Below are positions 4,240 to 25,592 of a stretch of DNA of 64,000 nt, piece after piece. The DNA is from Noviherbaspirillum sedimenti (GTDB taxonomy: Bacteria; Pseudomonadota; Gammaproteobacteria; Burkholderiales; Burkholderiaceae_D). Under the pieces are notes generated by a model. It saw nothing but the letters and a program-made list of their open reading frames with translations. It did no database searches and had not been told where the DNA came from. Each line of letters starts with the position of its first letter. Within the stretch, counting starts at the first letter, position 1. The stretch lies in assembly GCF_003590835.1 (NCBI RefSeq), contig NZ_QYUQ01000002.1, positions 3,162,001 through 3,226,000 of the forward strand, written 5' to 3'. A program made the translations under genes and the position numbers.

Positions 4240-4330
4240 CAATCCAACTCCTTTACCGATATGAACAAGGAAGCGCGAAGATTTCGGGAAAAATCGCCGT
4301 AACCCCGTGATCGAAACGCACCCACATATA

Positions 4331-4356
4331 AAATAGACCGACGCTACGGTCTATTT
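4331..4356. promoter_or_regulatory. Palindromic operator-like site 1 (best copy)
   Basis: Perfect 10-base arms (AAATAGACCG and CGGTCTATTT) separated by ACGCTA, about 90 bp upstream of the FAD oxidoreductase start at 4239. Similar sites lie at 4891, 19896, 23739 and 25421, all with a 6-base spacer beginning AC. The form fits a TetR-type operator, and the TetR gene at 26329 is the obvious candidate. Confidence 0.6.
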
Positions 4357-4890
4357 ATGGTGCCAGTTTAGGTAGATTGAAACAGCATGTCAACTAAGAA
4401 CCTGTTCCACCTGCATTTATTTCTTTGGCATCCGAGACAGAAGCAAGCTCCCCATGACGCGCTTAAGTATCGCTTCAGCGATGCGCGCAATGGATGGCAA
4501 GGTTGAACATCAGGACGAAGCCGACCAGGTGCCCGCCACATCGCGCGCGCCATAGTCGATGGGATCGTGCAATCGCATTCTGCGACGTCACAAGAACCCG
4601 CGACGACAGGCTTTCGCCTCAGGACGATATTGTCCAATTCGCGGATCTCCCGACACCGCACCTCCTGCACAATATACCGATGGGAAGCAGGTGGTGTCGG
4701 GCAAGTAGCGGTGAGACGAGGTGCGCCTCATCATGGAGAACGAGACGCTGGCCGCTCTGGCACCCAGCGCCAAGAACGACCTTTTCCTCGCGTAGCTTGA
4801 ACAAAAGGCGGCGGGGCAAGCCCCCGAAGAAAACCTCGCCGCATTCAGCGCCACCCCGTCGCACTGCTGCATACCAACCGCCGTCATCTT
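4357..4890. other. Stretch without a recognisable intact gene
   Basis: More than 500 bases with short overlapping open frames on both strands, none with a recognisable motif. One plus-strand stretch near 4720..4850 reads like eroded coding sequence (DEVRLIMENETLAALAPSAK, interrupted by a stop soon after). I could not assign it to a family. Confidence 0.4.
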
Positions 4891-4912
4891 ATGGACCGAC
4901 GAGTCGGTTTGT
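4891..4912. promoter_or_regulatory. Operator-like site 2
   Basis: ATGGACCG, spacer ACGAGT, CGGTTTGT: the same plan as the site at 4331 with three changes in the arms. It lies about 107 bp upstream of the PaaY-like gene start at 5019. Confidence 0.45.
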
Positions 4913-5018
4913 TATAAAATAGTTTTCACTCCGGGGTCAGACTATTCCTTATGACCATCCCATGCCGTCGCCCGCCTTGTTTCCGAGCATGCTGGGCGGC
5001 CCACCAGGAAAATCCATG

Positions 5019-5624
5019 CCGTCTTATTCTATTGAGGGCGTTATTCCCGTCGTCGATCCCTCCTCTTACGTTCATCCCACTGCGGTGCTCATTGGCGACG
5101 TGATAATCGGCCCAGACTGTTATGTCGGTCCATGCGCCGTACTGCGCGGCGACTTTGGTCGAATCATCCTGGAACGGGGCGCCAACGTGCAGGACACCTG
5201 CGTCGTGCATGGTTTTCCAGCAAGCAACACTGTAATCGGGGAAAACGGCCACATTGGCCATGGTGCAGTGCTACATGGATGCATCATAGAGCGCGACGCT
5301 CTGGTCGGTATGAACGCGGTGGTAATGGACGAAGCCACCGTCGGCCAGCGCAGCTTCGTCGCCGCGAGCGCCTTTGTTCGTGCCGGCATGGAGATCGCCC
5401 CTGACATGCTGGTGGCGGGAGTCCCGGCGAAGGTCATTCGCGAACTCACAGCGCAGGAAATCGCATGGAAACATGAGGGCACCCTGACCTACCAGGGCTT
5501 GGCGAAACGCAGCCTGACCACGATGCACGAGGTGTCGCCCCTGCCGGCGGTGGAAGAAGGCCGGCGGCGCATCAACGCGTCGGACGCGAAGCCATTGATT
5601 GTTACGAAGCGCAACGGCACCTGA
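5019..5624 (+). CDS. paaY: PaaY-like gamma-carbonic-anhydrase-fold protein
   Basis: A 201-residue left-handed beta-helix (hexapeptide repeat) protein, with repeats running from [20 protein letters not shown] through [28 protein letters not shown] and [13 protein letters not shown]. The three histidine positions of gamma carbonic anhydrases are visible (VVHG, GHIGHG). The C-terminal part ([20 protein letters not shown]) is typical of PaaY and CaiE, which accompany CoA-ester catabolism; PaaY is a thioesterase that clears dead-end CoA esters. Start ATG 5019 follows CCAGGA; an upstream in-frame start at 4962 lacks a ribosome site. It is the only catabolic gene of the island on the plus strand. 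Its GC looks higher than that of its neighbours. Confidence 0.82.
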
Positions 5625-5751
5625 CTTCGTCCGCGGGCCAAAGATGGCAGCCAGACGGAATCACGGGGGATCTAGAATGGGCTCAAGCCCGCCCATCCCG
5701 GGCTTACTATTGTGATTGCCTGTCTATCGATTGCGGCCAAATTCAGCACCC

Positions 5752-5860
5752 TGTTGGCACCGACCGAAAATTGACCCATCTATAGAATGAACCCCTTCCG
5801 GTCCATGTCCAGGGGTTCACTCCACTCCAGCGATGGGTCAATATTTGATCGGCGCCAACA
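5752..5860. mobile_element. 109-bp MITE-like element with 29-bp inverted ends
   Basis: The two 29-base ends (5752..5780 and 5832..5860) are inverted copies with four mismatches. Both begin TGTTGGC and end ATTGACCCATC. Inside is a second inverted pair (TGAACCCCT and AGGGGTTCA). There is no room for a transposase. The ends look like those of IS21-type elements, from memory, so this may be a non-autonomous derivative. Confidence 0.65.
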
Positions 5861-5949
5861 AACATATGGCAGCAACTGCATTGCCGCAATCGGCGCGACG
5901 CATTGATTGCGATAGGCCGGACGAGCGCGATGCGGTTTTACCGACGAAC

Positions 5950-6516: not shown

Positions 6517-6525
6517 GCCCTGGAT

Positions 6526-6866
6526 CTATTCGACGCAAGTGCCTATCCCGGAAAGCGCAGCCATCAGGACGATTCTCAAAACCGTCACGCCGAAATCAAT
6601 CGCCGCATCGCGACAAACCTCGTAAGGTGGCGGATTGGCGGACGGTTGAATTGTCAGGATGCTGCCGAACGGCCGATCGGTGAACGTGCGCCAGTGCGCG
6701 ATTTCCTTCGCCGAGTGCTCTGGAGCAGGCTGTGTGAGTGCTGGCAGCATACCCATCACGCCCGCATTGGACACGGCCGAGGCAATCTTGTCGCGCCCAC
6801 CCAAATCATGCCGTCTTGGATGATCGTGTCTCGGCAACCCAAGAGTTCAGTGACGCGCATTTTCAT
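6526..6866 (-). pseudogene. Nitronate monooxygenase remnant, frameshifted and truncated
   Basis: From ATG 6866 the minus strand reads MKMRVTELLGCRDTIIQDGM, typical of the N-terminus of nitronate monooxygenase (2-nitropropane dioxygenase family, FMN-dependent). Near 6803 the reading moves to another frame, consistent with loss of one base in the GGGC run, and continues DKIASAVSNAGVMGMLPAL and ERP-like FTDRPFG. The match fades after about 95 residues of the usual 320 or so, and the frame ends at 6526. The FMN-binding and catalytic parts are absent, so it cannot make an active enzyme. Confidence 0.8.
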
Positions 6867-6980
6867 TTAAATTAAAGCTCATCCGTTCATACATAAACCA
6901 ATGCGCCGCCATAGCGGCCGAAAGGCATTCGGATAGCATCACAAATAATAGGCATAACGGGTCATGGGTAGTCCTTTCTA

Positions 6981-8142: not shown

Positions 8143-8181
8143 TAGAAATGCTTTGCGCTTGTACTCCACGTGACGGTTCGT

Positions 8182-10248
8182 TCACACTTCACGGTTAGAA
8201 GGAAATAGTTGCTGCGCGTCGCCGCGGACAAATCCAGGTCCGCTTAACTCGGCGAGCCAGTCGAACTCCTCTTCCAGCTGATCAACCGCGCGTTCGCTCG
8301 CCCAGAATACTGGGCCGCCCTCCCACTTCGGAAAACCGTAGCCGTTTACCATCGCCACGTCGATATCGCTTGCTCTGTGCGCCACACCCTCCTGGAGAAG
8401 CAGCGCGGCTTCGTTGGTCATCGCCAACAGGGCGCGCTTCGTGATTTCATCGTCGCCAATTTGGCGAGGAACGATACCTTTGGCCGCTCTTGCACTATTG
8501 ATGATTTTTTCCACTAGCAGATCGGGCCGCCTTGCCCCGCCTTCCTGCTCGTACAGGTAGTAGCCGGCACCGCTCTTGCGTCCGAGGCGTCCGGCTTCAC
8601 AGAGCAAGTCTGGAATACAGACATAGCGTGCCATCGGGTCGCGTGTAGCGGCAAGGCTCTGGCGCATCCGCCAAGCGATGTCGAGGCCGGAAAGGTCTCC
8701 TACGGTGAAGGGGCCCATTGCAAAGCCGAACGATTCAAGGGCGGCATCAACTTGCTGGGGAGAGGCCCCCTCTTCCAGCATGAACTCGCATTGGCGTCGA
8801 TATGCTGCATAGATCCGGTTGCCTATGAAGCCAAATGCGTTGGCAGACACTACGGGTTGCTTATGTAGACGTCTTGCGAATTGCAAGCTTGTTGCGATAA
8901 CCTCCGGCGACGTGGCAGCCCCATGTACGATTTCGAGAAGACGCATCACGTGTGCCGGGCTGAAAAAGTGGAGTCCGACGACGTCCTGCGGGCGCGAAGT
9001 CACGGCGGCTATCGCATCAAGGTCTGAATAGGAGGTATTCGACGCTAGAATGGCGCCTTGGCGCGCCACCTCATCCAGAAGACGAAAGACATCCTGCTTT
9101 ATCTGCAAATCCTCGAATACGGCCTCAATCACGAGGTCTGCAACAGCCACCGTCGACCAGTCGAGGCTTCCCCTCAGACGCGCATCGCGCGCTGCGGCTT
9201 CGGCGGCGTGTAGCTTTCCGGCGTCGACGCGGCTGCGATAGTGATTGCGTATGCGGTCAATACCCCTGCTGAGTGCGACGTCGTCACGCTCTAGTACGGC
9301 GACGTCGAAACCGGCATCGAGTGCAGCAATGGCAATTCCTGCCCCCATTGTGCCGGCACCGATCACTGCCACGTTTTTTATCGGACGTGGCATGGCAGTT
9401 TCAAGTGCCGGGTGCTTGGCCGCGTCACGTTGTGCGAAAAACTGGTGGCGTAACGCGCGTGCTTCCCGCGACGTCCGCAGTGATTGAAATGCGCTACGCT
9501 CATCCACCAATGCGAGGTCAATAGGAAGTGTTTTGGCCAAACTGATACAGTTGATTGCCGCATGCACCGCTGGACGGCATTTCCCGGCGCGCAATGCACT
9601 TTCGGCCGCCTTGGTGATCGAGGACTCGTCGCACACAGGCACGGGCATATCCCGCACTCTCGCTTTCCTGCCACGCATTTCCCGTGCCAAAGAAATGGCT
9701 TCTTTACGCAGGCTTGTTGCCGCCACCTTGTCGATGAGGCCGAGAGACAGCGCCTCTTCGCTAGATACTCGCTCACCGCTGCAGACGAGGGAGATCGCCT
9801 TCGGAATGCCAGCCAGACGAGCCAAGCGTTGCGTGCCGCCCGCTCCAGGAATGATGCCGAGTGTTACTTCAGGCAGGCCAACCACAGTGCCTGCAAGCGC
9901 AATTCTTGCATCGCAACCAAGGGCAAGCTCGTATCCGCCGCCCAGTGCTGCACCATGCAATGCTGCCACGACCGGTTTTTCGCAGGATTCAATCGCCGCG
10001 ATGACGGCAGGCAACTGGGGATCTGCAAGCGGTTGTCCGAATTCACGCAAATCGGAACCTGCGACAAACGTATTTCCAGCGCCGATGATGACAATGCCGT
10101 TAACAGCAACATCAAACTTCACTTCTTCGATAGCAGCCAGCAATCCGCTTCGCACTTCGAGCGATCCGGCATTGATCGGAGGATTGTCGATCACTACAAT
10201 GGCAATATCATGCTCCCGTTCAATACGAATACAATTGTTCAACATCAT
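8182..10248 (-). CDS. Fused enoyl-CoA hydratase / 3-hydroxyacyl-CoA dehydrogenase
   Basis: A 688-residue bifunctional beta-oxidation enzyme. Residues 1 to about 190 are a crotonase domain; both catalytic glutamates are present (GGGYELALGCD and LPEVTLGIIPGAGGTQRL). From about 290 a Rossmann fold begins (NVAVIGAGTMGAGIAIAALD), followed by the dehydrogenase C-terminal repeats (GFIGNRIYAAYRRQ; VNGYGFPKWEGGPVFWA). It hydrates an enoyl-CoA and oxidises the 3-hydroxyacyl-CoA with NAD. It is about 30 residues shorter than E. coli FadB/FadJ. The start overlaps the stop of the upstream crotonase gene by 4 bp (ATGA), indicating translational coupling. The substrate is probably an intermediate of the island pathway. 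Confidence 0.92.
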   Translation of the reverse strand: MMLNNCIRIEREHDIAIVVIDNPPINAGSLEVRSGLLAAIEEVKFDVAVNGIVIIGAGNTFVAGSDLREFGQPLADPQLPAVIAAIESCEKPVVAALHGAALGGGYELALGCDARIALAGTVVGLPEVTLGIIPGAGGTQRLARLAGIPKAISLVCSGERVSSEEALSLGLIDKVAATSLRKEAISLAREMRGRKARVRDMPVPVCDESSITKAAESALRAGKCRPAVHAAINCISLAKTLPIDLALVDERSAFQSLRTSREARALRHQFFAQRDAAKHPALETAMPRPIKNVAVIGAGTMGAGIAIAALDAGFDVAVLERDDVALSRGIDRIRNHYRSRVDAGKLHAAEAAARDARLRGSLDWSTVAVADLVIEAVFEDLQIKQDVFRLLDEVARQGAILASNTSYSDLDAIAAVTSRPQDVVGLHFFSPAHVMRLLEIVHGAATSPEVIATSLQFARRLHKQPVVSANAFGFIGNRIYAAYRRQCEFMLEEGASPQQVDAALESFGFAMGPFTVGDLSGLDIAWRMRQSLAATRDPMARYVCIPDLLCEAGRLGRKSGAGYYLYEQEGGARRPDLLVEKIINSARAAKGIVPRQIGDDEITKRALLAMTNEAALLLQEGVAHRASDIDVAMVNGYGFPKWEGGPVFWASERAVDQLEEEFDWLAELSGPGFVRGDAQQLFPSNREV

Positions 10249-11048
10249 GCTTTCCCCTTCGACTTACCTATGCTCTGTTCCAAAAAAGCCATGACCGATT
10301 CGCGGTGTTCATTGCTCGTGTAGCAGATCCCTTGAGCCTGGCTTTCCTGTGCAAAAATTTGCTCGGCGGATAACTCAAAGCTTTGATTAACAATTGTTTT
10401 GCTCAGCGCAAGCGCTGTCCGCGATCCCTTGCTCAGTTCAATTGCCCATGCGCGGGCATCAGCCAACAGCGTTTCCGGCGAGCTGAGACGATCTGCGATC
10501 CCGATACTCAACGCCTCAGCTGCATCGACCTTTCGGCCGCTGAAAATCAATTCCTTCGTTTTGGATAGACCAACGCGGCGTGGCAGCAGATACATCCCCC
10601 CCCCATCCGGGACTAGTCCACGGGCGACGTACGACCATGTAAAGTTGGCTTCACTGCTAGCAATGACGAAGTCGCACGCCAGGGAGGTATCCGCTCCAAG
10701 ACCGGCCGCCACACCATTCACTGCCGCAATCGTAGGTTTTGGCATGGTGTGGAGTAGCGACTGGGTATAATGAACGTGCTGCTGACGACGCCAGCCATTA
10801 AAGCCTACCTCGCCCGCTGGCACGTTCAAGCGCCTCTCCATGCTAGCGATGTCGCCCCCTGCACAGAATCCTCTACCGTTACCGGTAAGGATTAGTGCAC
10901 GGATTTCGGGATCAGCCGACACTTGCTCTAATGCGGAAATGAACTGAGTACGCATGTCGTCGTTCATCGCGTTATGCTTTTCTGGACGGTTCAGGAAGAT
11001 AGTAGCTATACCCGACTCGATTTCTAATTGGATCAGTTCACTACACAT
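10245..11048 (-). CDS. Crotonase-family enoyl-CoA hydratase/isomerase, PaaG-like
   Basis: A 267-residue crotonase. The oxyanion-hole segments are visible (GNGRGFCAGGDIASMERR; NGVAAGLGADTSLACDFVIA). The two glutamates of true hydratases are not at their usual places: the first position reads GADTSLACD and the second falls in YVARGLVPDGGGMYLLPR. This pattern matches isomerases such as PaaG, with LVPDGGG in place of the hydratase signature. It therefore more likely shifts a double bond or acts on a ring than hydrates. It is translationally coupled to the downstream fused enzyme. The ribosome site AAGGGGG precedes ATG 11048. Confidence 0.88.
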   Translation of the reverse strand: MCSELIQLEIESGIATIFLNRPEKHNAMNDDMRTQFISALEQVSADPEIRALILTGNGRGFCAGGDIASMERRLNVPAGEVGFNGWRRQQHVHYTQSLLHTMPKPTIAAVNGVAAGLGADTSLACDFVIASSEANFTWSYVARGLVPDGGGMYLLPRRVGLSKTKELIFSGRKVDAAEALSIGIADRLSSPETLLADARAWAIELSKGSRTALALSKTIVNQSFELSAEQIFAQESQAQGICYTSNEHRESVMAFLEQSIGKSKGKA

Positions 11049-11111
11049 TTGGTGACCCCCTTAAATTTTCAATAGGTGTAATTGGGCGTGCACAGCCGGG
11101 GAAAAATACGC

Positions 11112-12788
11112 CTACATGTTCGGATAATTCGGCCCGCCGCCGCCTTCCGGCGTGACCCACACGATATTCTGGCTCGGGTCCTTGATGTCGCAGGTCTTGC
11201 AGTGCACGCAGTTCTGCGCATTGATCTGCAGGCGATCCTGGCCGGCATCGGTCTTGACGAATTCATATACGCCGGCCGGGCAGTAGCGCTGCTCCGGCCC
11301 CGCATACTTGGACAGGTTCACGCCCACCGGAATCGCATCGTTCCTGAGCGTCAGGTGGATCGGCTGCTCTTCCGCATGGTTGGCGTTCGAAATGAACACT
11401 GACGACAGCCTATCAAACGTCAGCTTGCCGTCCGGCTTGGGATAGGCGATCGGCGTGCATTCGGCGGCCGGTTTCAGGCACTCGTGGTCGGCGTAGTTGC
11501 GGTGCAGGGTCCACGGCGCCTTGCCGCGGAAAACCATCTGGTCGATGCCGGTCATGATGGAACCCAGGACCAGGCCCTTGGACAGCCATGGTTTGACGTT
11601 GCGCGCCACGTGCAATTCTTCATGCAGCCACGAGCGCGCGAATGCCACCGGGTAGGAGCTTAGTTCGTCGTGCTGGCGCTGCTCGCCCAGCGCGGCAAAG
11701 GCAGCCTCGGCGGCCAGCATGCCGGTCTTGATGGCGGCGTGGCTGCCCTTGATGCGGCTCATGTTGAGAAAGCCCGCGTCGCAGCCGATCAGGGCGCCGC
11801 CCGGGAAGACCAGCTTGGGCAGCGACTGCAGGCCGCCGGCGGTAATCGCCCGGGCGCCATAAGAGAGGCGCTTGCCGCCTTCGAAGAAGGAGCGGATGGC
11901 CGGATGGGTTTTGTAGCGCTGGAATTCCTCGTACGGCGACAGATAGGGATTGGCGTACGACAGGCCAATCACATAGCCGACCACGACCTGGTTGTTTTCC
12001 AGGTGGTACAGGAAGGACCCGCCATAGGTATCGTTCTTGAGCGGCCAGCCAGTGCTGTGGATCACCAGCCCCGGCTTGTGCAGCTTCGGATCGATTTCCC
12101 ACAATTCCTTGATGCCGATGCTGTAGGACTGCGGATCCTTGCCCTGGTTCAGGTCATAGCGCGACATCAGCTGCTTGCCCAGATGCCCGCGCGCACCTTC
12201 GGCAAACAGCGTGTACTTGGCATGCAATTCCATGCCCAGCTGGAAGGCATCGGTGGGATTGCCTTCGCGGTCCACGCCCATGTTCCCTGTCGCCACACCT
12301 TTGACCGAGCCATCGTCGTTGTAGAGGATTTCGGCGGCAGGAAAGCCGGGGAAGATTTCCACGCCCAGGCTTTCTGCCTGCTGGCCCAGCCAACGCACGA
12401 CGTTGCCCAACGAAACGACATAGTTGCCGTGGTTTTCAAAGCAGGCCGGCACCATGAAGCCGGGCGTCCGGTAAGCCCTGGTTTCGGTCAGGAAGAGGAT
12501 GCGGTCTTCCGTGACTTCGGTATGCAGCGGCGCGCCCAGCGCTTTCCAGTCCGGCAGCAGCTCGGTGAGCGCGCGCGGATCCATGATCGCCCCCGACAGG
12601 ATGTGGGCGCCGAGTTCGCCGCCTTTTTCGAGGACGCAGACGGCGATGTCATTGCCCTTTTCCGCCGCCAGCTGTTTGAGTTTGATGGCCGCAGACAGGC
12701 CGGCAGGTCCTCCGCCGACGATGACAACGTCGTATTCCATTGCTTCGCGCGGGCCGTATTCTTGTTCCCGGCCTTCTTCAAATTGCAT
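11112..12788 (-). CDS. Electron-transfer flavoprotein:ubiquinone oxidoreductase
   Basis: A 558-residue membrane-associated flavoprotein that passes electrons from ETF, and so from acyl-CoA dehydrogenases, to ubiquinone. Visible parts: FAD fold DVVIVGGGPAGLSAAIKLKQ, GGALIGCDAGFLNMSRIKG, and a C-terminal iron-sulfur segment with four cysteines (YCPAGVYEF; NCVHCKTCDIKDP). ATG 12788 is preferred because GGTGGA lies 6 bases before it; ATG 12794 and a longer frame from 12848 are possible. No etfA, etfB or acyl-CoA dehydrogenase lies in the window, so partners must be elsewhere. Its GC looks clearly higher than that of genes on either side, hinting at a separate origin. Confidence 0.93.
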   Translation of the reverse strand: MQFEEGREQEYGPREAMEYDVVIVGGGPAGLSAAIKLKQLAAEKGNDIAVCVLEKGGELGAHILSGAIMDPRALTELLPDWKALGAPLHTEVTEDRILFLTETRAYRTPGFMVPACFENHGNYVVSLGNVVRWLGQQAESLGVEIFPGFPAAEILYNDDGSVKGVATGNMGVDREGNPTDAFQLGMELHAKYTLFAEGARGHLGKQLMSRYDLNQGKDPQSYSIGIKELWEIDPKLHKPGLVIHSTGWPLKNDTYGGSFLYHLENNQVVVGYVIGLSYANPYLSPYEEFQRYKTHPAIRSFFEGGKRLSYGARAITAGGLQSLPKLVFPGGALIGCDAGFLNMSRIKGSHAAIKTGMLAAEAAFAALGEQRQHDELSSYPVAFARSWLHEELHVARNVKPWLSKGLVLGSIMTGIDQMVFRGKAPWTLHRNYADHECLKPAAECTPIAYPKPDGKLTFDRLSSVFISNANHAEEQPIHLTLRNDAIPVGVNLSKYAGPEQRYCPAGVYEFVKTDAGQDRLQINAQNCVHCKTCDIKDPSQNIVWVTPEGGGGPNYPNM

Positions 12789-13084
12789 ATTCATTCCACC
12801 ACATGTCCATTTGTATTCAATTGCACAGATTGCACATATAGCGCACATTTCGATCGATCATTATCGTTTGAGTGAGCTTGCTAGTGCGCGTCAGCGTCGA
12901 CGTTATCGGTAACTACGTTCTATAAAGCGTTCTGGGGCGACGCGAATTCCACGTACATTCTCTCGAACCTGATATTTTCTGCCGCGAGTTATTTCAAGCA
13001 ACACGACTGGGACTAACCGAATTCTGAATAACTTTCTTTCGAGTTGTAGTACGTCATTTCGAAAAGACCATAGCGGCGACAGAT

Positions 13085-16605: not shown

Positions 16606-16681
16606 TCTGCTCTCCACCTTGAATGCTCAAGACTCAGGAAGCACCTGCCAATACTGCGCAGGTGTCCCTATGCAATACTCG

Positions 16682-18049
16682 TTACGGTTTTAGAATATGC
16701 GTCGTCATTGATTCCGGCGTCAATGAACTCGGGGCAAGTGCTGGATAGTGTACGTGTCCACCTTCTGGCGACATCCAGATGTAGATCCCCGTGACCAAAT
16801 CAAGAATATACTGATCAGTGATTCCTGGAGCTTGAAGATCGTAGGCAGGAACACCCGGGTTAATGTTTACCCGGTAAAGGCTGCCTGACTTATCATAGTT
16901 TTCTTCAATACCAGCGGCGAAAGTATCTTCATCCAGGAAGAAATCACGCTTCTGATATACATGCCGCTTCCCTTCTTTCAAGGTGGCCTGCACATGCCAA
17001 ACGCGGTGCATTTCCCAACGCACGCATTCGGACTTAAGGTGGTTCGGCAGTAGCTTTGCGTCCCCTTTGCATGCGTTGCTATTGTCAGAATTCGTCAGCT
17101 TGTATGCATTGTAGGGGATAAGGACTTCTTTCTTACCGACCAACTTCCAGTTGTAGCGATCACGCTTGCCGGAAAAGATTTGCTCTTCATCATAAACCAT
17201 CGCTCCGCCCACTGTACTCACCGGTGCATCCCCTGCCAAATCCGGCGCCAAGCGGACGCGACGCGTTGATGGTTGATAAGACCATGCCCGACGTTCGCTA
17301 TCGGCAACCCTGTCGTAATACTGAGTGGTTTGACCATTCAGACGCGCTGGGCTGTAATACTCCAATCGGACCAATCCGAAAGTGTCTGGCGGATTTTTAC
17401 GTGTGTCATACAGACCCAGTTCGCGGTACAGATTGGATCGCTGCGTGACAACGATTTCACCCGATGGCTTAACATAGTAAGTTGAGAAATTTTTGCTCAC
17501 AAAGGACAAACCACGATAGCGGGCGGCGTGGTTCCACATTACTTCAAGACCAGATTTAGGGATCGGAAACGGCAGGCCGAATCCGCACCCTTTTGAGGTG
17601 TCTAGCCCGTCGCCGTCCGCGATGAGGGCGCATCTCTCTGCATTCTTTACTGTATTTTCAAGAACCGTGGACGGGTAAGTGGCCGACCGATGCGTAGGAT
17701 ATACGTCAACATAAAAAGTCGGGTATTTCCGAATCAGTGCAAGCGTTCCCGGGGTGAGTTTGTCATTGTGCTGTTCAGCATTTTTTGCATCGATGCGGTA
17801 CAGAGGCTTATCTTTATCAAAAGGATCGGGCCTTACTCCCGGGTTGCTCTTAACGAACCCCGGTGGCATCTCGATAATGCCCCCCGTGTATGCAGGGATC
17901 GTCCCAGACGCATTTGCCGCCTTCTCGGCGCCCCAAGGCGTCAAGGTGGTACCGAGCTTTTTCATCTCATCAGGCGAAACAGCAGCCCGTGCCGTGCCAG
18001 TTACGGAAATACAAGCGACCAGGCCAATCAACGCGATGTTCAAATTCAT
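16682..18049 (-). CDS. DUF1329 exported protein
   Basis: A 455-residue protein with a clean signal peptide (IALIGLVACISVTGTARA). The body carries patterns I associate with DUF1329 (TPWGAEKAANASGTIPAYTGG; GVRPDPFDKDKPLYRI; WSYQPSTRRVRLAPDL). From memory this family is related in fold to LolA/LolB, lipid-binding periplasmic proteins; that would suit a shuttle between the MMPL protein in the inner membrane and the DUF1302 protein in the outer membrane. The AAGGAG ribosome site precedes ATG 18049. The gene lies 32 bp downstream of DUF1302 and 76 bp upstream of the YCF48-like gene. Function unproven. Confidence 0.87.
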   Translation of the reverse strand: MNLNIALIGLVACISVTGTARAAVSPDEMKKLGTTLTPWGAEKAANASGTIPAYTGGIIEMPPGFVKSNPGVRPDPFDKDKPLYRIDAKNAEQHNDKLTPGTLALIRKYPTFYVDVYPTHRSATYPSTVLENTVKNAERCALIADGDGLDTSKGCGFGLPFPIPKSGLEVMWNHAARYRGLSFVSKNFSTYYVKPSGEIVVTQRSNLYRELGLYDTRKNPPDTFGLVRLEYYSPARLNGQTTQYYDRVADSERRAWSYQPSTRRVRLAPDLAGDAPVSTVGGAMVYDEEQIFSGKRDRYNWKLVGKKEVLIPYNAYKLTNSDNSNACKGDAKLLPNHLKSECVRWEMHRVWHVQATLKEGKRHVYQKRDFFLDEDTFAAGIEENYDKSGSLYRVNINPGVPAYDLQAPGITDQYILDLVTGIYIWMSPEGGHVHYPALAPSSLTPESMTTHILKP

Positions 18050-18081
18050 TTTCTATCTCCTTGGTGTGTTTCGTTATTGAT

Positions 18082-19698
18082 TTAGAACGATCCCTTGTAG
18101 GTCAGCACGACCCAGCCACGATCCTGACGTTGAGTGCCATTCGTCACACGGGTGACGCCAGATGCCGTCGGTTCATAGGTAGCTCGGTAATCATTGTAAG
18201 AAATTGAGAAGTCATGCCGCTGGTTATAGGTGAAAGTAGCTCCCAAACTATAACTCCCCCCATTTTTGGTGCCATTGTTTGCCACGGCCGAATTGCCTTT
18301 CAAGCCGAGGCTATAGCTTGCCAGACCACTGACATCCCAACCCGGCCACACTGACAACCACTGGGGTGTAAAGCGGACCATAGCCTGCAGTGCATCCTTT
18401 GTGACGCAACCAGTACCTGCGCCTTGATCACCTGCCGGTCTTTGGCTGCACCCGAGAAAATAATTTTGGCCGGTCGTTACCTTATCCCAGCGGCTGTACC
18501 CCAGTTCGCCAATTAGGGTTGCACTGTTCCAAATCGCATTTGGCGCCATTGCAACCACTGCATTTGCCAGCAAGTGCCACGTATTGCCGCGCGCCCCCTC
18601 CTGGTTACCATCCGTAATGGAACTTACCAACGGCTGGTTCTTGCGATAGCTGACCTCGCTTCCGAAGCTTATCCCGCCGAGATTCTTGGAAAGACTCATA
18701 CCGATAAGTTGGATGTTCTTCGGGTACACGGGGTTGTAGATCCTACTGGGAATATTTAAGCTAACGCTCGGATTTTTTTCAGTAAAATCGCGGTAATAAA
18801 CCCCGACAGTTCCGTCTAACCACGAGGGACGCCACCGCGCGGCTAGGCCCCAGTCGCCCCTTCCTGATGGTTCTATATTTCCTCCGTTCCTAAGAAAGAG
18901 TCCGGGCGCAGGCGACACCCGGTCTGGGCCGTTCAACAGAAAATCGGTGCCAGCAAGATAGGTTCCCCCTTCTGGTGACCGTGAGGGGCGCCATTCGAAA
19001 TAATATTGAGCTGAAAGGCTGAGCTCTGGTGTTGCCTGGAGGTTCGCGGAAATCTGTCCGATAGGCATCGCCAATTCCTTGGCGTCGATACCCGGGTTCG
19101 TTACAGCCTTAAGCCCATCCGTCGGCGCTTGACTGTGCGAGATGCTATTGACCGTCAAAAATACAGCCTCCCCCCACAACACCGAATGGCGACCTATCTT
19201 AACGTCGCCTGGCATGCCGCCAAGCTCGAAGTTACTGAACACATAGGCGTCGAGAAGTTCGCCCGAGAGACCTTTGTGGTAGCGCTTTGTAAAGTTTGAA
19301 AATTGATTATTGAAATAGCTTCCACGCGATGCGAGGGTGGGACCGGTTCTAACATCATCATGGAATGCAGCGTCAGCCCATGCCGCACCGCTAATTCGAA
19401 ACCCCAATTGCTTTCGATAGCTGAAATCAAACTCGCTTAGCAAGTCGAGCCGATTAGTGACCATGTCTCCGCGATTGAATGAGTTTGTCCCTTCATCATT
19501 GCTGGGACTCCTAGCGAGAACCGGATCGCGATTCTCAACTCTCCATCCGGCATTGTAGCGAACGGTATTTCCCCACTGCATACTGATATCCGGATTTTCG
19601 CTAGGAATGTCTATTGCATAAGCATGCGCAGCGACGAATGAAAATACGGCAGCCATACATGCCTCCGCATACTTCTTACGTCCTATATTGATTGTCAT
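18082..19698 (-). CDS. DUF1302 outer-membrane beta-barrel-like protein
   Basis: A 538-residue exported protein with a signal peptide (ACMAAVFSFVAAHAYA) followed by a body rich in alternating aromatic and polar residues. It ends in an aromatic-terminal strand (RGWVVLTYKGSF), as expected of an outer-membrane barrel. Internal segments (NTVRYNAGWRVENRDP; GRHSVLWGEAVFLTVNSISH) match what I recall of DUF1302. ATG 19698 follows GGAGGAAG; the longer frame from 19755 has no such site. It is first of the DUF1302-DUF1329-YCF48-MMPL run. A putative operator lies about 200 bp upstream. Probable role: passage of a hydrophobic compound across the outer membrane. Confidence 0.87.
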   Translation of the reverse strand: MTINIGRKKYAEACMAAVFSFVAAHAYAIDIPSENPDISMQWGNTVRYNAGWRVENRDPVLARSPSNDEGTNSFNRGDMVTNRLDLLSEFDFSYRKQLGFRISGAAWADAAFHDDVRTGPTLASRGSYFNNQFSNFTKRYHKGLSGELLDAYVFSNFELGGMPGDVKIGRHSVLWGEAVFLTVNSISHSQAPTDGLKAVTNPGIDAKELAMPIGQISANLQATPELSLSAQYYFEWRPSRSPEGGTYLAGTDFLLNGPDRVSPAPGLFLRNGGNIEPSGRGDWGLAARWRPSWLDGTVGVYYRDFTEKNPSVSLNIPSRIYNPVYPKNIQLIGMSLSKNLGGISFGSEVSYRKNQPLVSSITDGNQEGARGNTWHLLANAVVAMAPNAIWNSATLIGELGYSRWDKVTTGQNYFLGCSQRPAGDQGAGTGCVTKDALQAMVRFTPQWLSVWPGWDVSGLASYSLGLKGNSAVANNGTKNGGSYSLGATFTYNQRHDFSISYNDYRATYEPTASGVTRVTNGTQRQDRGWVVLTYKGSF

Positions 19699-20078
19699 TG
19701 TCTTCCTCCAGTTATTTTCATGAATAATCCTATCCCCAAATCTGACAGACCGCACAACAATTCTGCCTCCTTAACGTAGACGGTCATTTACCACTTGCTT
19801 GAGACACTTCTTGCCGAGAACAATCATCGCCTTCGCTGATGTATGTGCGCGATCAAATGAAGTGCGCATCCGGCGCTTCGGCACTCACTTACAAGACCGT
19901 CCGACAGGTCGGTCTAACAACTGGGTCAAATGTAATCCCCCTCCATCCGATCTGTCAACAAGTAAATTGAACACAGGCGACTTGCCTTAGCGACGACTTT
20001 GGCACAGGAGCTTTTTATGTTGCTGGAGCGGCTGCTACGTTCAATCATCGACTCGATTGTCGTGTGCGTCTTCCCGTA
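19699..20078. other. Intergenic promoter region with no gene
   Basis: About 380 bases between the DUF1302 gene and ligase copy B. No frame here has a recognisable product. It holds operator-like site 5 at 19896..19917 and must contain the DUF1302 promoter. Confidence 0.55.
19896..19917. promoter_or_regulatory. Operator-like site 5
   Basis: ACCGTCCG, spacer ACAGGT, CGGTCTAA: the right arm matches the consensus at 7 of 8 bases, the left at 5 or 6. A second AAGACCG just to the left could make an overlapping site with a 10-base spacer. Confidence 0.4.
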
Positions 20079-21638
20079 CTAACCGATCATTTTTGCCGAT
20101 CCAGCCCAATACTTTTTCTTCAGCTCAAGCTTGTTAAGCTTGCCGGTGGCAGTCACAGGCAAGCTGTCAAGAAACTCGACTGACTTAGGCTTGGCATAGC
20201 TGGCCATGCGCGGCGCACAAAACTCGATCACTTCGCGCTCAGTAAGCTTTTCGCCCGGCTTGCACACAATGAAGGCCTTGACGACTTCGCCCCATTTGCT
20301 GTCCGGTACGCCAATGACCGCAACGTTGGCAATCTTGGGATGGTCGAACAACGCATTTTCGATTTGGGCCGGATACACGTTTTCCCCACCGGTAATAATC
20401 ATGTGGCTCTTGCGATCGACAATGTAGATATAGCCATCCTCATCCACTGTCGCCAGATCCCGCGTGTAATACCATCCATCGCGGATTGCCTCCGCAGTCT
20501 CCTTTGGCTTGTTCAGGTAGCCTGCCATCACTTGCCCACTTCTGGCGATGACTTCCCCTACCTCGCCTGGGATGACGTTCGTTCCGTCATCGCGCACAAC
20601 TCTTACCTCTGAAAGACTGGCCTGCCTCCCGGCCGAGTTCAGCCGCCCTGCAACACGGCCCGCTCCCGTTAATGCTTCCCGATGGTCGCCGGGGCTCAGA
20701 AAGACAATCGTGAAGCATTCAGACGCACCAAACGCCTGAATCATGTCGCAGTGTGGGAGCACCTTGATTGTCCGCCTCAGAACCTCCTGCGGCATAGGAG
20801 AGGCGCCGTAGAGCAGACGACTCAGACTGCTCAAGTCGTACTCATTCACCTTGTCAAAATTGAGCACAACATTGAGAACCGCAGGCGCCAAAAAGGCTTT
20901 GGTGACTTTTTCCTGCTGGACCGTACGGCAGAATTCGAGCGGAATGAAGTCCTTCAAGATAATATTTGTCGCACATCGGAATAGTGCGCCTAATGCGATG
21001 ATTCCCGCGACGTGAAATATTGGTAAAGAATTCAGGTAGCGATCCTCAGGTCCGAACTGCATCTCGATCGCGATGCAGCACATCCGCATGATCATGCTAC
21101 GACGCGTCGCCATCGCGCCTTTGGGGTCACCCGTCGTGCCGGTGGTGTAGATAACGACTGCCAGGTCATCATCGGCATGCACGGCTTGCGGCTCCGCTGA
21201 CGATGCACTCGCCAGCAAAGACTCGTAATCCAACAGGCCATCCACCGCCCCCCCGACTGCAATGACGGCTTCCAATGCGGGCAAGCGCGCGCTCATCTCC
21301 TGGACGGTAGCAGCAAACTCCGTATGGACCAGCAATGCCCGGCATTCCGCATCGGCAATGATGGTGCAAATCGCGTCAGGGTTAAGTCGATAGTTGATCG
21401 GAACCACCACGATCCCGGTCTTCGCCCCCGCCGCAAAGGCATCAAAGCACTCGGCACAGTTCTTTAGCACCACTCCGACACGGTCGCCCTTCTTCAGCCC
21501 CAGGCCAAGCAAGGCATTTCCCAGCCGATGCTGCCGTTCCCCCCACTGCTTCCACGTAAAACGCCGATCCCCATCAACAAGCACATCTCGTTCCGGATAT
21601 AGCGTTATTCCTCGATTAAATGCTGCGCGATAGTCCAT
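20079..21638 (-). CDS. Acyl-CoA synthetase (AMP-forming), copy B
   Basis: A 519-residue ANL ligase, paralogue of the gene at 1020..2579. The adenylate-forming motifs are the same (YTTGTTGDPKGAM; TGKLNKLELKKKYW), while residues about 180 to 317 differ, including LPIFHVAGIIALGALFRCAT in place of LPMFHAIGLIALGAVFRCAT and a 2-residue insertion (FDKVNEYDLSS). The last residues also differ (AKMIG against TYPKSTT). Catalysis should be the same, with a changed acyl pocket. AGAGGTGAT precedes ATG 21638. An FAD oxidoreductase lies 552 bp upstream on the same strand, echoing copy A. No operator-like site was seen directly in front. Confidence 0.93.
   Translation of the reverse strand: MDYRAAFNRGITLYPERDVLVDGDRRFTWKQWGERQHRLGNALLGLGLKKGDRVGVVLKNCAECFDAFAAGAKTGIVVVPINYRLNPDAICTIIADAECRALLVHTEFAATVQEMSARLPALEAVIAVGGAVDGLLDYESLLASASSAEPQAVHADDDLAVVIYTTGTTGDPKGAMATRRSMIMRMCCIAIEMQFGPEDRYLNSLPIFHVAGIIALGALFRCATNIILKDFIPLEFCRTVQQEKVTKAFLAPAVLNVVLNFDKVNEYDLSSLSRLLYGASPMPQEVLRRTIKVLPHCDMIQAFGASECFTIVFLSPGDHREALTGAGRVAGRLNSAGRQASLSEVRVVRDDGTNVIPGEVGEVIARSGQVMAGYLNKPKETAEAIRDGWYYTRDLATVDEDGYIYIVDRKSHMIITGGENVYPAQIENALFDHPKIANVAVIGVPDSKWGEVVKAFIVCKPGEKLTEREVIEFCAPRMASYAKPKSVEFLDSLPVTATGKLNKLELKKKYWAGSAKMIG
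20097..21638 (-). repeat. Mosaic duplicated ligase block, copy B (partner 1044..2579)
   Basis: Direct repeat of the block at 1044..2579, about 19 kb away in the same orientation. Near-identical at both ends, diverged between 20689 and about 21099. Recombination between the copies could delete or amplify everything between them. Confidence 0.9.
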
Positions 21639-22190
21639 ATCACCTCTTGTTATTTCGGCATGAACTCAATGTTCTTTGCATGACATACACGCACTGTCTT
21701 TGCCGCTAAACAGGACAAATCACTTCGCTATCAGGCCGCCTCCAGCAGTGTCTACGACTGCTGTTATCACCTCTCACAGAAAATGAGATGAACAGCACCC
21801 AGACGGCAGCAATATTGCGCGCCAATCCCGTCTGTGCGCTCCGCCACCTTTTGCTAACCAACCCTACTGTTTCACAAGCGCCAGCATCGCCCATCCCGCT
21901 ATTACGCCATGCGACGCTACCCGCTGCGCTCATGGCTACATATCAGGCATAGAAGGCAAATGGCTGTTTCAAGCAAAAGCTACTGCACGACGATAGCACT
22001 GCGATAAAAATATCTCATGATCGTCTCGTCTAGCCTCTACAGCGATTCAACGGGCGGCATGAGCGCGTCTTCCTAATATTAAACATCGAGCATTTCGCAA
22101 TTTGTCTGAGTACTATCTGGCCGATTTTTAAATTCGTGTGAGTCGCATCTGCTGCCCCTGTTCATGCCGGCTTTTTGTCATTCATCGAAT
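21639..22190. other. 552-bp stretch without a gene
   Basis: No frame on either strand has a recognisable product, and no transposase remnant was seen. By contrast the equivalent gap in the first ligase/oxidoreductase pair is only 109 bp, so sequence may have been inserted here or lost there. Confidence 0.5.
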
Positions 22191-23717
22191 TTAAATTTCT
22201 CTTTGATGGGGCGGCAATATTTCGTGCATATAATTCTTTCCGGTGATTTCATTTGTACAAAGGAGCGCTCCATAGGCAACACCGTCCATAAACTTGCCAT
22301 AATTTCTTACCGACTCACCGACAAAGAACAGTCCTTCAATGTCGTCACTTTTCGGCGCGAGCTGGCCGTCCCACGCCTGCGCTGGGGTAGGCGCCACTGA
22401 AGTAACGAAATCGAAGGCGGGGAACAATGCCCACTCCAATGAGTCCTTGAATCCCGGGTGGCTCTTGTCCATGAAGTCGAGGATGCTGTCGCACAGTAGC
22501 TGTAGTTTTCCGGTTCTCTTTAATTCACGCAATTCTGAAGTCGGCAATCCCACCCAGCACTCGATGATTTCTTTGCCTTTCGGTGCTTTACCTTCAATGA
22601 ACAATGAGTGCGCCTCATATCCGAACATAATTCCGTCTGGGAAGGCCGGATCGTCAATTGCGATCTTTGTCATTAACATGCCGGGAATATCAATTACTGA
22701 TTTTTTTAACCCAAAGATTGGCGTCACCGCACCGCTCGACTCAAAGCTAGCAACCTTTTCAATAAACTCTTTCGACAAATACGCGTTTGGAATTAGCTCG
22801 CGCTTGACCGCAAGTTTAATTGGCACGTTACAGACGATAGTGGGTGCGGTAAATTCCTCGAAGCCACCTTCCTTCCTTACACGGACACCTGTTGCTGTAC
22901 CAAAGTCGACCGTAATGTTTTCGACATGTTGGCCCAGGCGAACTTCCCCCCCCTGGGCAGTAATGATACTTTCTAGATTATGGGCAATCTGCATAAATCC
23001 TTTTCCGCCCATTTGTCCAAGCGTACCATCCGCAAAATGCAGCCCGCCAAGCATCGGCATCCGTGTCACCAGAATAAACTCGCCTGCGGAGAGTTGCTTT
23101 GCCGAGTTCATGCCGACTGTAAATGCACCCAAGATGTCAAAGAACTCAAGCACTTTAGGATTCTGGGTCTTCGGTGCGATATACTCCGCGAGTGATATAC
23201 GGTGGTTTTTTCGAATTTCATCCACCGGCATCTTTACCATTTCACTAATAATCGCGCGCATTTCCCTATAGTCGTCCCCATCCATCCAAGGCAGCTGCCC
23301 GCGCGTCATCGAATGCAGTTTACCGTCACTCCAGAACCCGCATGCCTTCAGTGGAACGATCTCGACGGGTACTCCGAGCGCTTCAAGAATGTGGCAGACC
23401 CTAGAACTTGTACCGTTGACTATGTCGTGCATTCCGAGTTCGAATTTGTAACCGGCCAGAAGGCCATCATCGATAATTTTTGGAAGGCTGGGAACGCTCG
23501 TAACAAGCCACCCGGTTGAAGCACCCAGAGGGCCGAGATAGTCCTCTTTAGTCTTGATATCATCGCCGATGAAGTGATGCATCCTTCCACCGATACCACT
23601 CTCCTTCTCCAAGACCAGTACCTTCTTTCCTTCCATCTTCGCAAGCAAGGCGGCAACGCAAAGCCCCCCGAGACCAGCACCTACAACGATTACATCGTAC
23701 GCATTTTGAGTATTCAT
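22191..23717 (-). CDS. FAD-dependent phytoene-dehydrogenase-like oxidoreductase, copy B
   Basis: A 508-residue flavoprotein of the same superfamily as 2689..4239: dinucleotide fold DVIVVGAGLGGLCVAALLAK, then VLVLEKESGIGGR, and a C-terminal FAD motif (GLFFVGESVRNYGKFMDGVAYG). Both paralogues share LAKMEGKKVLVLEK and a glycine-rich stretch before the substrate domain, but overall similarity is far lower than between the two ligases. The pairs therefore diverged long before the ligase ends were made alike. AAGGGAATTGG precedes ATG 23717, and an operator-like site lies 22 bp upstream of the start. Reaction unknown; desaturation or saturation of a hydrophobic substrate is likely. Confidence 0.85.
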   Translation of the reverse strand: MNTQNAYDVIVVGAGLGGLCVAALLAKMEGKKVLVLEKESGIGGRMHHFIGDDIKTKEDYLGPLGASTGWLVTSVPSLPKIIDDGLLAGYKFELGMHDIVNGTSSRVCHILEALGVPVEIVPLKACGFWSDGKLHSMTRGQLPWMDGDDYREMRAIISEMVKMPVDEIRKNHRISLAEYIAPKTQNPKVLEFFDILGAFTVGMNSAKQLSAGEFILVTRMPMLGGLHFADGTLGQMGGKGFMQIAHNLESIITAQGGEVRLGQHVENITVDFGTATGVRVRKEGGFEEFTAPTIVCNVPIKLAVKRELIPNAYLSKEFIEKVASFESSGAVTPIFGLKKSVIDIPGMLMTKIAIDDPAFPDGIMFGYEAHSLFIEGKAPKGKEIIECWVGLPTSELRELKRTGKLQLLCDSILDFMDKSHPGFKDSLEWALFPAFDFVTSVAPTPAQAWDGQLAPKSDDIEGLFFVGESVRNYGKFMDGVAYGALLCTNEITGKNYMHEILPPHQREI

Positions 23718-23738
23718 ATTTCCAATTCCCTTTCATTT

Positions 23739-23760
23739 ATATGCCGACCCGACGGTCTTT
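23739..23760. promoter_or_regulatory. Operator-like site 3
   Basis: ATATGCCG, spacer ACCCGA, CGGTCTTT, just upstream of FAD oxidoreductase copy B. The right arm is close to the consensus, the left weaker. Position next to the start would suit a repressor. Confidence 0.45.
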
Positions 23761-23849
23761 TAAAGAAGCCTACTGCAATTCGGAGGGCGTGTCAACAGGA
23801 CTAACTCCTGATACGACTCGAAAACCTGGAGGGGCTTACCTCCCTTCCA

Positions 23850-24285
23850 CCATCATCGTGCTGCCTTCCTGGGTATTACACAGACAAAGACCGCGAAGCC
23901 GAGCCATATTGGTGCCGTCTTATCCGGAGCGAACGAGCTCAAGGGTATCGACTGGGAATGGCTTGTCCTGGATGGAGCAATGGCCAAAGCGCCTCTGGGA
24001 AGTGAAATGGACTGGCCCAAAACCCTCCAACCTGGAGGAAAGGCGGCGTCAAACACAGTCTGCTCACTAAAGAAGCGCACAGTGATCCATTGGCTATAGA
24101 GATAGAAATTGGGCCCGTCAATCGACACGACATAAAGCTGGTAGTACAGACAGTAGCCAAGAACATGCTGGCGTGGCCGGCTAAAGAACAGCGACGGCGA
24201 CTGCGCATGGATCTAGGACACGGCTATAAAAAACTGCGAGAAAAGCAGCGGAGAACGGCGCTGGGAGTCGAGCGAACCCATAGCT
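23850..24285 (+). pseudogene. IS5-type transposase remnant, frameshifted
   Basis: Plus-strand frames together read like the catalytic half of an IS5-type transposase: GIDWEWLVLDGAMAKAPLG (first catalytic aspartate region), a frame change near 24010, then KGGVKHSLLT, NRHDIKLVVQTVAK and LGHGYKK. The frame moves and the beginning is missing, so no protein is made. I could not define terminal repeats. It marks an old insertion between the oxidoreductase and the amidohydrolase genes. Confidence 0.7.
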
Positions 24286-24402
24286 GAATCAATCGATCTC
24301 GACGATTATTGGATTGACGGGAAAAACAGGCTGAGCTTACCTCGCTATGTCGCGGTTTGCATGCGGCTCATTACGTGACAATCCGCCCTATCAAAATAGA
24401 TT

Positions 24403-25212
24403 CTAAGCAGAGAAGAACAATTTGCGGGCATTTTCCGCAACAAATTTGGCCAACGTTTCCTCGTCGCGAATTTCCAACCCGGCGATCTCCTTCATACATC
24501 GCTCAAAGGTGAGCACTGGATAGTCACTTGCCCACATAATCCGGTCGGCGCCACGGGTATTGAGATAGCGAATGATAGCCGCAGGAATATGCTTGGGCGC
24601 AAATGCCGATGTCATGTAAAAAAGATTGGGCCACTTAAGCATCAACTTAACGCAAAGATCTGTCCATGGTTCGCCACCATGGGCCATGATTATTTTCAAC
24701 TCAGGGAAGAAGTGGCAGACCTCGTCCAAGGCGAAGGGATCTTGGCACTTGCTCGGGACTCGCGGCCCTGGGAACCCCACATTCACACTGACCGGAACCC
24801 CTAGCTCAGCGCACTTCGAATAGATCGGAAAATATATTGCATCATCGTAGGGCTTTTGAGTCATGAGCGCCATCATGCGGATCAAACGATAACCGTCATT
24901 TCGAACAAGACTATCGACAAGTCGCACCGCATCCATACCTTGACGAGGATCGATAATATGAGAGGCGGCAAACCGTTCTGGAAACCGGTTCACTGCATCT
25001 TTTACCCACGACAACGTATCCCCGGTGCCATACCCGGAAACGAGAACCGCCTTTTCAATACCAGCAGCATCCATTTCATCGCAGAGTTGAGAGAGCGTGG
25101 TGCCCCTGGCCCATCGCTCGGCGAGTCCAGGAAATAAGTAGTTGGCATCACCTTCCGGGGCACCGAGATTAGTATTTACCCAGCAATCAATTGCCTTAAA
25201 CTTTAATGTCAT
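24403..25212 (-). CDS. Amidohydrolase-fold (amidohydrolase_2) protein
   Basis: A 269-residue protein with the TIM-barrel amidohydrolase pattern: SHIIDPRQGMDAVRLVDSLV, IMAHGGEPWTDLCVKLMLKW and a C-terminal IMWASDYPVLTFERC containing the conserved aspartate. The usual HxH metal pair near the N-terminus is absent; the sequence there is IDCWVNTNLG. Relatives of this family hydrolyse or decarboxylate ring-derived acids; with the missing histidines the metal site may differ or be lost. GTGAGG lies before ATG 25212. A good operator-like site lies about 210 bp upstream. Likely a step in the island pathway. Confidence 0.82.
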   Translation of the reverse strand: MTLKFKAIDCWVNTNLGAPEGDANYLFPGLAERWARGTTLSQLCDEMDAAGIEKAVLVSGYGTGDTLSWVKDAVNRFPERFAASHIIDPRQGMDAVRLVDSLVRNDGYRLIRMMALMTQKPYDDAIYFPIYSKCAELGVPVSVNVGFPGPRVPSKCQDPFALDEVCHFFPELKIIMAHGGEPWTDLCVKLMLKWPNLFYMTSAFAPKHIPAAIIRYLNTRGADRIMWASDYPVLTFERCMKEIAGLEIRDEETLAKFVAENARKLFFSA

Positions 25213-25592
25213 TTTGAAACCTCACTAGTCATGACCGACGAACGCGCTGTGGCACCACAGAAGATTGAATTAGCTCTCATAGATAATGCTGAAATAAAAG
25301 TGCGACGTGATCGATGACAAGATGTGCGCCGCCGTTGAAATGAACAGAATTCGCCGTTTTCAATTCCCAACCCAGCTTATAACCAACCACAATTAAACGT
25401 GTAACTTCGCATACCGTTTGATAGTCCGACTCAACGGTCTATTAAACATAGATTAACAGTGGAAATCCTTGCTTGTCAACGCCAACTCTCGGTTATTTTG
25501 GACTCTGCAACGGGAAGCTGGATAAGAGCATCTAACAAAATCGAATAATTGCGGTCAAATCAGCTTTCCAGTATGTTCTGTGAAGAGACGAC
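25213..25592. other. Intergenic promoter region
   Basis: About 380 AT-richer bases between the amidohydrolase gene and the transposase remnant. It contains operator-like site 4 (25421..25442). No gene seen. Confidence 0.5.
25421..25442. promoter_or_regulatory. Operator-like site 4
   Basis: ATAGTCCG, spacer ACTCAA, CGGTCTAT: one mismatch between the arms. After the site at 4331 it is the best match to the shared consensus. Confidence 0.55.

Follow-up and report, generated by a model that had tools for sequence, protein, structure and literature searches.

The DNA analysed here is a window of 64,000 nucleotides from Noviherbaspirillum sedimenti (contig NZ_QYUQ01000002.1 of 5.0 Mb, bases 3162001 to 3226000; small coordinates follow the window, 7-digit coordinates the contig). 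It carries catabolic genes, an envelope cassette and a gene for a TetR-type regulator, TetR1, and in front of five of its genes lies an inverted repeat which we consider a candidate operator (Table 1). Copies had been claimed at 4331, 4891, 19896, 23739 and 25421, upstream of FAD copy A, a PaaY-like gene, DUF1302, FAD copy B and an amidohydrolase gene. All five are present and placed in this way, except that the first starts two bases later, at 4333. Compared to the pattern ATAGACCG-N6-CGGTCTAT, identity is 16/16 at 4333, 15/16 at 25421, 13/16 at both 4891 and 23739, and 12/16 at 19896. With up to three mismatches allowed, four of the five sites and nothing else match in the window, while 0.14 matches are expected, and none of 100 shuffles gave four matches. 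The inverted repeats are real and exceed what chance would provide.

The list of five sites turned out to be incomplete, as five additional sites occur to the left of the window. The ten sites span contig positions 3136441 to 3187442 (ca. 51 kb) and are thus not confined to the window, and each precedes a catabolic or envelope operon, operons being gene runs judged from strand and spacing. A matrix built from 35 sites of foreign loci (see below) puts exactly these ten sites on top (scores 28.2 to 15.1, next 8.0) in the 144 kb covered by the matrix scan, which consist of the window with 60 kb to its left and 20 kb to its right. The remaining genome was scanned by pattern. For the initial pattern, all three genome places with at most one mismatch and 6 of the 14 with at most three are inside the cluster; as the reversed control yields 18 places at the latter threshold, the weaker matches count through their place and not their number. 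For pattern TAGWCCGWCNNGWCGGWCTA, which was shaped in part by the cluster sites themselves, all seven genome places with up to two mismatches, and 10 of the 17 with up to three (binomial 2e-16), fall within the 51-kb cluster, which represents 51 of 5,038 kb. When only the inner 20 bases are scored, nine cluster sites reach 15.3 to 24.1, while seven scattered genome places reach 8.4 to 14.8. An equal density of sites outside the island would have spoken against a regulon; no such density was encountered in the pattern search. The operator is concentrated in one functional gene cluster, as is characteristic for a local multi-operon TetR regulon.

Table 1. Candidate operators, putative promoters and genes of the cluster. 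"Matrix" is the score with the foreign-site matrix; operon assignments are predicted.
Feature	Position	Strand	Remarks
Candidate operator	3136441		before two acyl-CoA dehydrogenase genes and hydratase
Candidate operator	3140282		before thiolase and FadJ
TetR2	3140495-3141121		second TetR_C_24 protein, 40% identical to TetR1
Candidate operator	3151693		genes 1-5: carboxyltransferase, biotin carboxylase, HMG-CoA-lyase type, hydratase, AMP ligase; remaining genes: acyl-CoA dehydrogenase, hydratase, SDR, TetR2
Candidate operator	3152042		before ETF beta, ETF alpha, CoA transferase
Candidate operator	3160947		before two acyl-CoA dehydrogenase genes; closest models pimC and pimD, cut-offs not reached
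Acyl-CoA ligase A	1020..2579	-	PF00501
FAD copy A	2689..4242	-	phytoene-desaturase-like; PF01593
Candidate operator O-FAD_A	4333..4354		ATAGACCGACGCTACGGTCTAT; before FAD copy A and acyl-CoA ligase; matrix 28.2, best in 144 kb
Sigma70-like promoter	4365..4393	-	TTGACA 4393-4388, 17 bases, TAAACT 4370-4365; ten bases to operator
Candidate operator O-PaaY	4891..4912		ATGGACCGACGAGTCGGTTTGT; ca. 104 bases before likely start 5016; matrix 23.1; without TTGACA promoter
PaaY/CaiE-like hexapeptide protein	5016..5624	+	start inferred, open reading frame (ORF) opens 4962; TIGR02287 308.9 bits, cut-off 319.6
Possible same-operon continuation	8182..12848	-	ETF-quinone oxidoreductase, enoyl-CoA hydratase, FadJ-like protein; deduced from gene order and strand
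AmeABCD-like cassette	13085..19755	-	four genes, listed below
HAE3 RND transporter	13085-15529	-	cassette gene
YCF48/BNR	15526-16617	-	cassette gene
DUF1329	16682-18049	-	cassette gene
DUF1302	18082-19755	-	cassette gene
Candidate operator O-DUF1302	19896..19917		lowest identity in window; matrix 17.0
Promoter before DUF1302	19929..19958	-	TTGACA 19958-19953, 18 bases, TACATT 19934-19929
FAD copy B and acyl-CoA ligase B	20079..23717	-	FAD B 22191-23717; ligase B 20079-21638
Candidate operator O-FAD_B	23739..23760		matrix 19.5
Promoter before FAD copy B	23767..23795	-	TTGACA 23795-23790, 17 bases, TAGGCT 23772-23767
Amidohydrolase	24403..25212	-	PF04909
Candidate operator O-amidohydrolase	25421..25442		ATAGTCCGACTCAACGGTCTAT; matrix 24.5
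Promoter before amidohydrolase	25450..25479	-	TTGACA 25479-25474, 18 bases, TAATCT 25455-25450
Frame-broken sequence	25594..26100 (approximate)	+	translations with stops; between 25421 operator and TetR1
TetR1	26329..26919	+	candidate repressor; PF00440 and PF17932

A profile of TetR1 relatives led to 45 loci from named genome records, with titles such as Variovorax, Hydrogenophaga, Bradyrhizobium, Rhodopseudomonas and Myxococcales. The matrix from the five reported sites alone gives 116 matches of at least 14 in these loci (115 unrounded) and 2 in a single Markov simulation. In 35 of the 45 loci a site is found 41 to 172 bases ahead of the TetR start. An upstream site scoring at least 14 is lacking in ten loci (L044, L052, L054, L068, L071, L078, L080, L081, L082, L083), all of which were kept in the set. 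In L052 the gene is at the contig start, in L068 the site is just beyond the 260-base limit, L078 scores 13.7, and L083 is a weak match (33% over 60 residues) and probably no ortholog. Sites are conserved beside TetR relatives in loci from Burkholderiales, Rhodopseudomonas, Erythrobacter and Myxococcota. With up to one mismatch, the operator pattern occurs in all of 15 genomes taken from the 45 loci (50 places, reversed control 8) and is confined to one contig in 14 of them. Among 99 relatives of the genome analysed here, it occurs in one, at a single place. An earlier asymmetric pattern, TAGWCCGACNNNWCGGTCTA, was abandoned; with up to one mismatch it was found in 4 of 100 genomes, including that of N. 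sedimenti, which is below its reversed control. A first scan of genome contigs with the single TetR1 protein as query gave no matches.

In all five window sites, AC follows CCG when read on the plus strand, and the original prediction concluded from this constant direction that the true site may be slightly asymmetric. The constancy holds in terms of the strand and not relative to transcription: four of the target genes are on the minus strand and one is on the plus strand, so that AC has no fixed direction with respect to its gene. Asymmetry is not supported either, since C at position 10 and G at position 13 are present in 105 of the 115 foreign matches and AC is thus half of a palindromic core, CCGAC-NN-GTCGG, which is flanked by ATAGA/TCTAT in the family consensus. 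At position 13, the G is missing in three of the strongest cluster sites (4333, 3136441, 25421). We read this as tolerated drift and not as designed asymmetry.

Promoters were sought by script, with each site oriented along the transcription of its target. At six of the ten sites (3136441, 3151693, 4333, 19896, 23739, 25421) an exact TTGACA is located 35 to 41 bases ahead of the operator, and a -10 box precedes it by 12 to 17 bases. With this spacing the operator would cover about the transcription start point, which is a classic position for a repressor.

TetR1 had been described as the only TetR gene. A search with TetR1 confirmed this for the window; however, a second such gene, TetR2, lies in the left half of the cluster. 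TetR1 has the domains PF00440 (6.3e-17) and PF17932 (1.7e-16), as does TetR2, so that both are TetR family proteins, and the recognition helix SKSMLYHYF is identical in the two. Judged from strand and order, the gene run that follows operator 3151693 ends with TetR2. A tree was computed for 39 proteins (25 selected from the 45 main proteins, 8 second TetRs, 4 PaaR-like proteins, TetR1 and TetR2). In this tree, TetR2 groups with the proteins of L080, L081 and L082 at 100/99, while TetR1 groups with the Variovorax-Hydrogenophaga type. Relatives of TetR2 were found in 1 of 391 other genomes of the family at E 1e-38, with one stop inside. In L080 and L081, operators are found both ahead of the carboxylase gene and directly after the TetR2 relative, and L082 has a single match (15.3). 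In none of the three loci is the TetR gene preceded by an operator within 260 bases, and in the genomes of L080 and L081, which are metagenome-assembled and possibly incomplete, no second TetR of this kind was found at E 1e-25. Because of the operators in L080 and L081 and the lack of a second TetR in two of the three genomes, members of the TetR2 clade can probably use this operator by themselves. A second TetR, with the helix SKSH(L/I/V)YHYF, was observed in L044, L045, L049, L054, L058, L061 and L063, and most second-TetR loci have an operator copy just upstream of it. Paired repressors acting on one operator may be common.

We consider it very probable that the mirrored sequence is the docking site of a family of TetR repressors, and we hold with good confidence that the repeats are operators of a distinct TetR_C_24 subfamily which together govern ten operons. 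As far as can be judged from sequence, the regulon is real, it is larger than first reported, and its operator is palindromic. The proposal that one TetR-type regulon joins envelope genes (DUF1302/DUF1329/HAE3) and catabolic genes is supported, with candidate sites before genes of both types. The regulon is probably under two related repressors, and the 51-kb cluster is likely switched as one unit, by two repressors and not by one.

Other explanations have been weighed. Chance palindromes or structural repeats such as terminators or insertion sequence (IS) ends might be suspected, as IS elements and a transposase-like remnant are present in the cluster. We regard this as the least probable explanation: the shuffles never reached the observed count, the sites precede operons and six of them are directly behind promoters, and both the ranking by the foreign-site matrix and the genome-wide location of the pattern contradict it. 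It is hardly more credible that the sites serve some other, unrelated DNA-binding protein and are close to TetR genes by coincidence, since the site is conserved beside TetR relatives across four taxa and occurs in just one of the 99 genomes of relatives.

More serious are two arrangements that differ in the division of labour between the repressors, each of which we consider unlikely. TetR1 might control all sites alone, as the original prediction suggested, while TetR2 has another target. Within the window, no TetR-like gene besides TetR1 came up in the TetR1 search, and the operator accompanies its relatives in 35 of the 45 loci. However, TetR2 has the same recognition helix and ends a run headed by an operator, and its relatives in L080 and L081 are in loci with operators before the carboxylase gene and, at E 1e-25, no other TetR of this kind in the genome. 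There may also be two split regulons, with TetR2 serving the five left sites and TetR1 the five right ones through subtle differences in sequence or DNA context. Relatives of eight left genes are indeed found in the TetR2-clade loci (50 to 79% identity), and no gene of the right half except a transposase is listed there. On the other hand, thiolase and FadJ from the left half are 66 to 79% identical to proteins from TetR1-type neighbourhoods in six loci (L039, L040, L043, L046, L048, L057), so that two gene sets are interleaved and no clean two-module picture emerges. Also, the sites show no consistent left/right difference by eye, the best left site differs from that at 25421 by one base, and the identical helices again argue against a split. 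Joint use by both repressors is preferred. More tentatively, and with somewhat less than even confidence, we propose that catabolic genes of different ancestry, in part resembling TetR1-type and in part TetR2-type neighbourhoods elsewhere, became one regulon because both repressors were already reading the same operator. If true, modules with a common operator can be joined and need no rewiring, and TetR1 and TetR2 could act on the ten operons as a gate that responds to either ligand or to both.

Several observations weigh against a TetR_C_24 regulon of ten operons. In the 260 bases ahead of TetR1 itself there is no operator palindrome, whereas its relatives have one in 35 of the 45 loci. The 25421 operator may once have been shared by TetR1; the frame-broken, transposase-like stretch lies between the two. 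This stretch resembles what we take to be a remnant of an IS5-type transposase. According to PMC3511530, a TetR protein within 200 bases of a divergent neighbour is usually its repressor, while exceptions occur when the distance is longer. With 1,116 bases between TetR1 and the amidohydrolase gene, the rule does not apply to this pair. The TTGACA arrangement is absent at four of the ten sites. At 3140282 and 3152042 the script detected no promoter and by eye only a -10-like box (TATAAT, CATAAT) was seen, while at 3160947 and PaaY the script found a weaker, differently placed promoter. As a family-wide feature this geometry had to be rejected, since it is found at 2 of 115 foreign sites, where promoters may differ. 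The 35 sites of the foreign matrix were chosen with the five-site matrix, so that the ranking is not a wholly independent test. A prior-free search of 43 upstream regions (L052 and L076 being excluded) puts CCGAC-N2-GTCGG only joint first, in 13 regions and tied with AATTC-GAATT, whose presence probably reflects relatedness; each of three control draws gave 3 for its top palindrome. In G102, one of three TetR2-clade genomes among the 15, the operators are on a different contig from the TetR2 relative, and in another of the three, G101, they are spread over two contigs.

Within the genome of N. sedimenti, the reversed TAGWCCGWCNNGWCGGWCTA control yields 91 places with up to three mismatches compared to 17 for the pattern itself, so that place counts say little and the argument rests on location. 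The inner-20-base score of site 3160947 (11.0) is inside the range of the scattered places, even though it reaches 15.1 over 22 bases, and its assignment leans on position as much as on sequence. A simulated genome yields 4 matches of at least 15 in 5 Mb, and a few weak chromosomal sites could exist elsewhere.

For binding and repression, the ligand type, the operon limits and the sharing of sites by both proteins we infer the following. A repressor dimer would bind ATAGWCCGWC-NN-GWCGGWCTAT at or just behind the transcription start and block the operon. TetR1 and TetR2, though from separate clades, have the same recognition helix and are probably both able to use the sites. A CoA-thioester of the pathway, upon accumulation, would bind the C-terminal domain and release the repressor from the DNA, which would turn on all ten operons together. 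The functions induced would be acyl-CoA ligation, FAD-dependent oxidation, beta-oxidation, a branch of acyl-CoA-carboxylase/HMG-CoA-lyase type, electron transfer and the DUF1302/DUF1329/HAE3 envelope cassette. Sequence relatives with solved structures are 4w1u, named KstR2, and 3vpr, presumably the PaaR of Thermus. KstR2 senses CoA-thioesters. The same is described for PaaR in PMC4424350, and release by a CoA-thioester is suggested by these two regulators and the type of pathway.

The substrate of the cluster may be a methyl-branched or terpenoid compound, which is suggested by the relatives of the carboxylase together with the HMG-CoA-lyase-type enzyme and the AmeABCD-like cassette. The best chains for the carboxyltransferase are labelled propionyl-CoA carboxylase beta (9tps, 603 bits) and AccD1 (4q0g, 600 bits). 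A geranyl-CoA carboxylase appears less likely, with 405 bits (5ikl) compared to 565 bits for methylcrotonyl-CoA carboxylase (3u9r); its beta chain is ninth in the table, after chains labelled as methylcrotonyl-CoA or propionyl-CoA carboxylase and one with an unspecific label.

Some other features of the region were noted. A perfect palindrome, CGTACGAATTCGTACG, at 26154-26169 upstream of TetR1 is unrelated to the operator. The DUF2889 gene (5950-6516) has no operator, and directly upstream of it, inside the cluster, is a DDE transposase gene (7012-8139) which we assume to be IS630-like. An IS66 transposase gene (L023 13770-15338) is found in the left flank, also inside the cluster. A phage-type integrase (29243-30658) is near a tRNA-Arg (31330-31405), and the two possibly mark the right edge of an integrated island (29243-31405). 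The ORF at 27039-27440 matches a McrBC family profile at positions 197-318 of 318 only and is perhaps a remnant. Among 120 listed relatives of FAD copy A, 27 show 71-82% identity, and the named ones, which include Gordonia, Rhodococcus, Pseudonocardia and Streptomyces, are all actinobacteria. FAD copies A and B, in contrast, are only 30% identical to each other. Transfer of copy A between phyla is likely. No plasmid relatives of FAD copy A were found, and none of FAD copy B in five congeners at E 1e-20. Outside the cluster, the same genome encodes ten more homologs of the window's HAE3 transporter, of which nine show 56-68% identity and one 29%, a striking expansion; of the five congeners, one has a match, at 28%.

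In summary, a precise candidate operator for a TetR subfamily provides a handle to predict whole degradation regulons from sequence. One DUF1302/DUF1329/HAE3 cassette appears to be co-regulated with catabolic genes of the same cluster, and the ten other HAE3 homologs of the genome are not near sites. The cluster also lends itself well to studying how operators are shared between paralogous repressors. As a local TetR regulon it is of an ordinary kind; neither a description of the operator or the TetR subfamily nor the two-repressor arrangement was found in the open-access literature searched.

The four domains of the window cassette, and their order, recur in the tetrapartite HAE3 transporter AmeABCD of Castellaniella defragrans (DUF1302, DUF1329, COG4447/BNR-type, HAE3 RND; PMC6394551), and a TetR operator is not mentioned in the portion of that source available. 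The HAE3 model TIGR00921 gives 159.7 bits for the window protein, below its cut-off of 351.9. None of the ten other HAE3 homologs has a place from the genome-wide pattern searches within 20 kb, so that the cassette alone does not define the regulon. AtuR of Pseudomonas aeruginosa is a TetR repressor as well, and its terpene/branched-acyl cluster, in this case for acyclic terpenes, also includes a biotin-dependent carboxylase. Control of AtuR type was rejected, as its 13-base operator, AGCAAGCGCTTGG in PMC9973270, is unlike the cluster sites by eye.

The site given for PaaR of Thermus thermophilus in PMC6651687, AACnAACGTTnGTT, also differs from the cluster operator. The four PaaR-like proteins, labelled as such in this analysis, form a clade of their own (100/98) apart from TetR1 and TetR2, and no paaABCDE-type domains were found among the proteins scanned. 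One of the four, L028, a TetR_C_24 protein from the genus of the window, has an upstream palindrome, TTGACCGACCGGTCGGTCTTA, with the core CCGACNNGTCGG as in the cluster. It is 33% identical to TetR1 and its site lacks the ATAGA/TCTAT flanks. Its gene adjoins aldehyde dehydrogenase and reductase genes, and it is the sole one of the four shown with paa-like neighbours. In its overall plan, the cluster resembles the system of Burkholderia cenocepacia, where, according to PMC2770484, the TetR repressor PaaR acts on several phenylacetate (paa) operons via a 15-base inverted repeat: in both, scattered catabolic operons have one inverted repeat in their core promoters.

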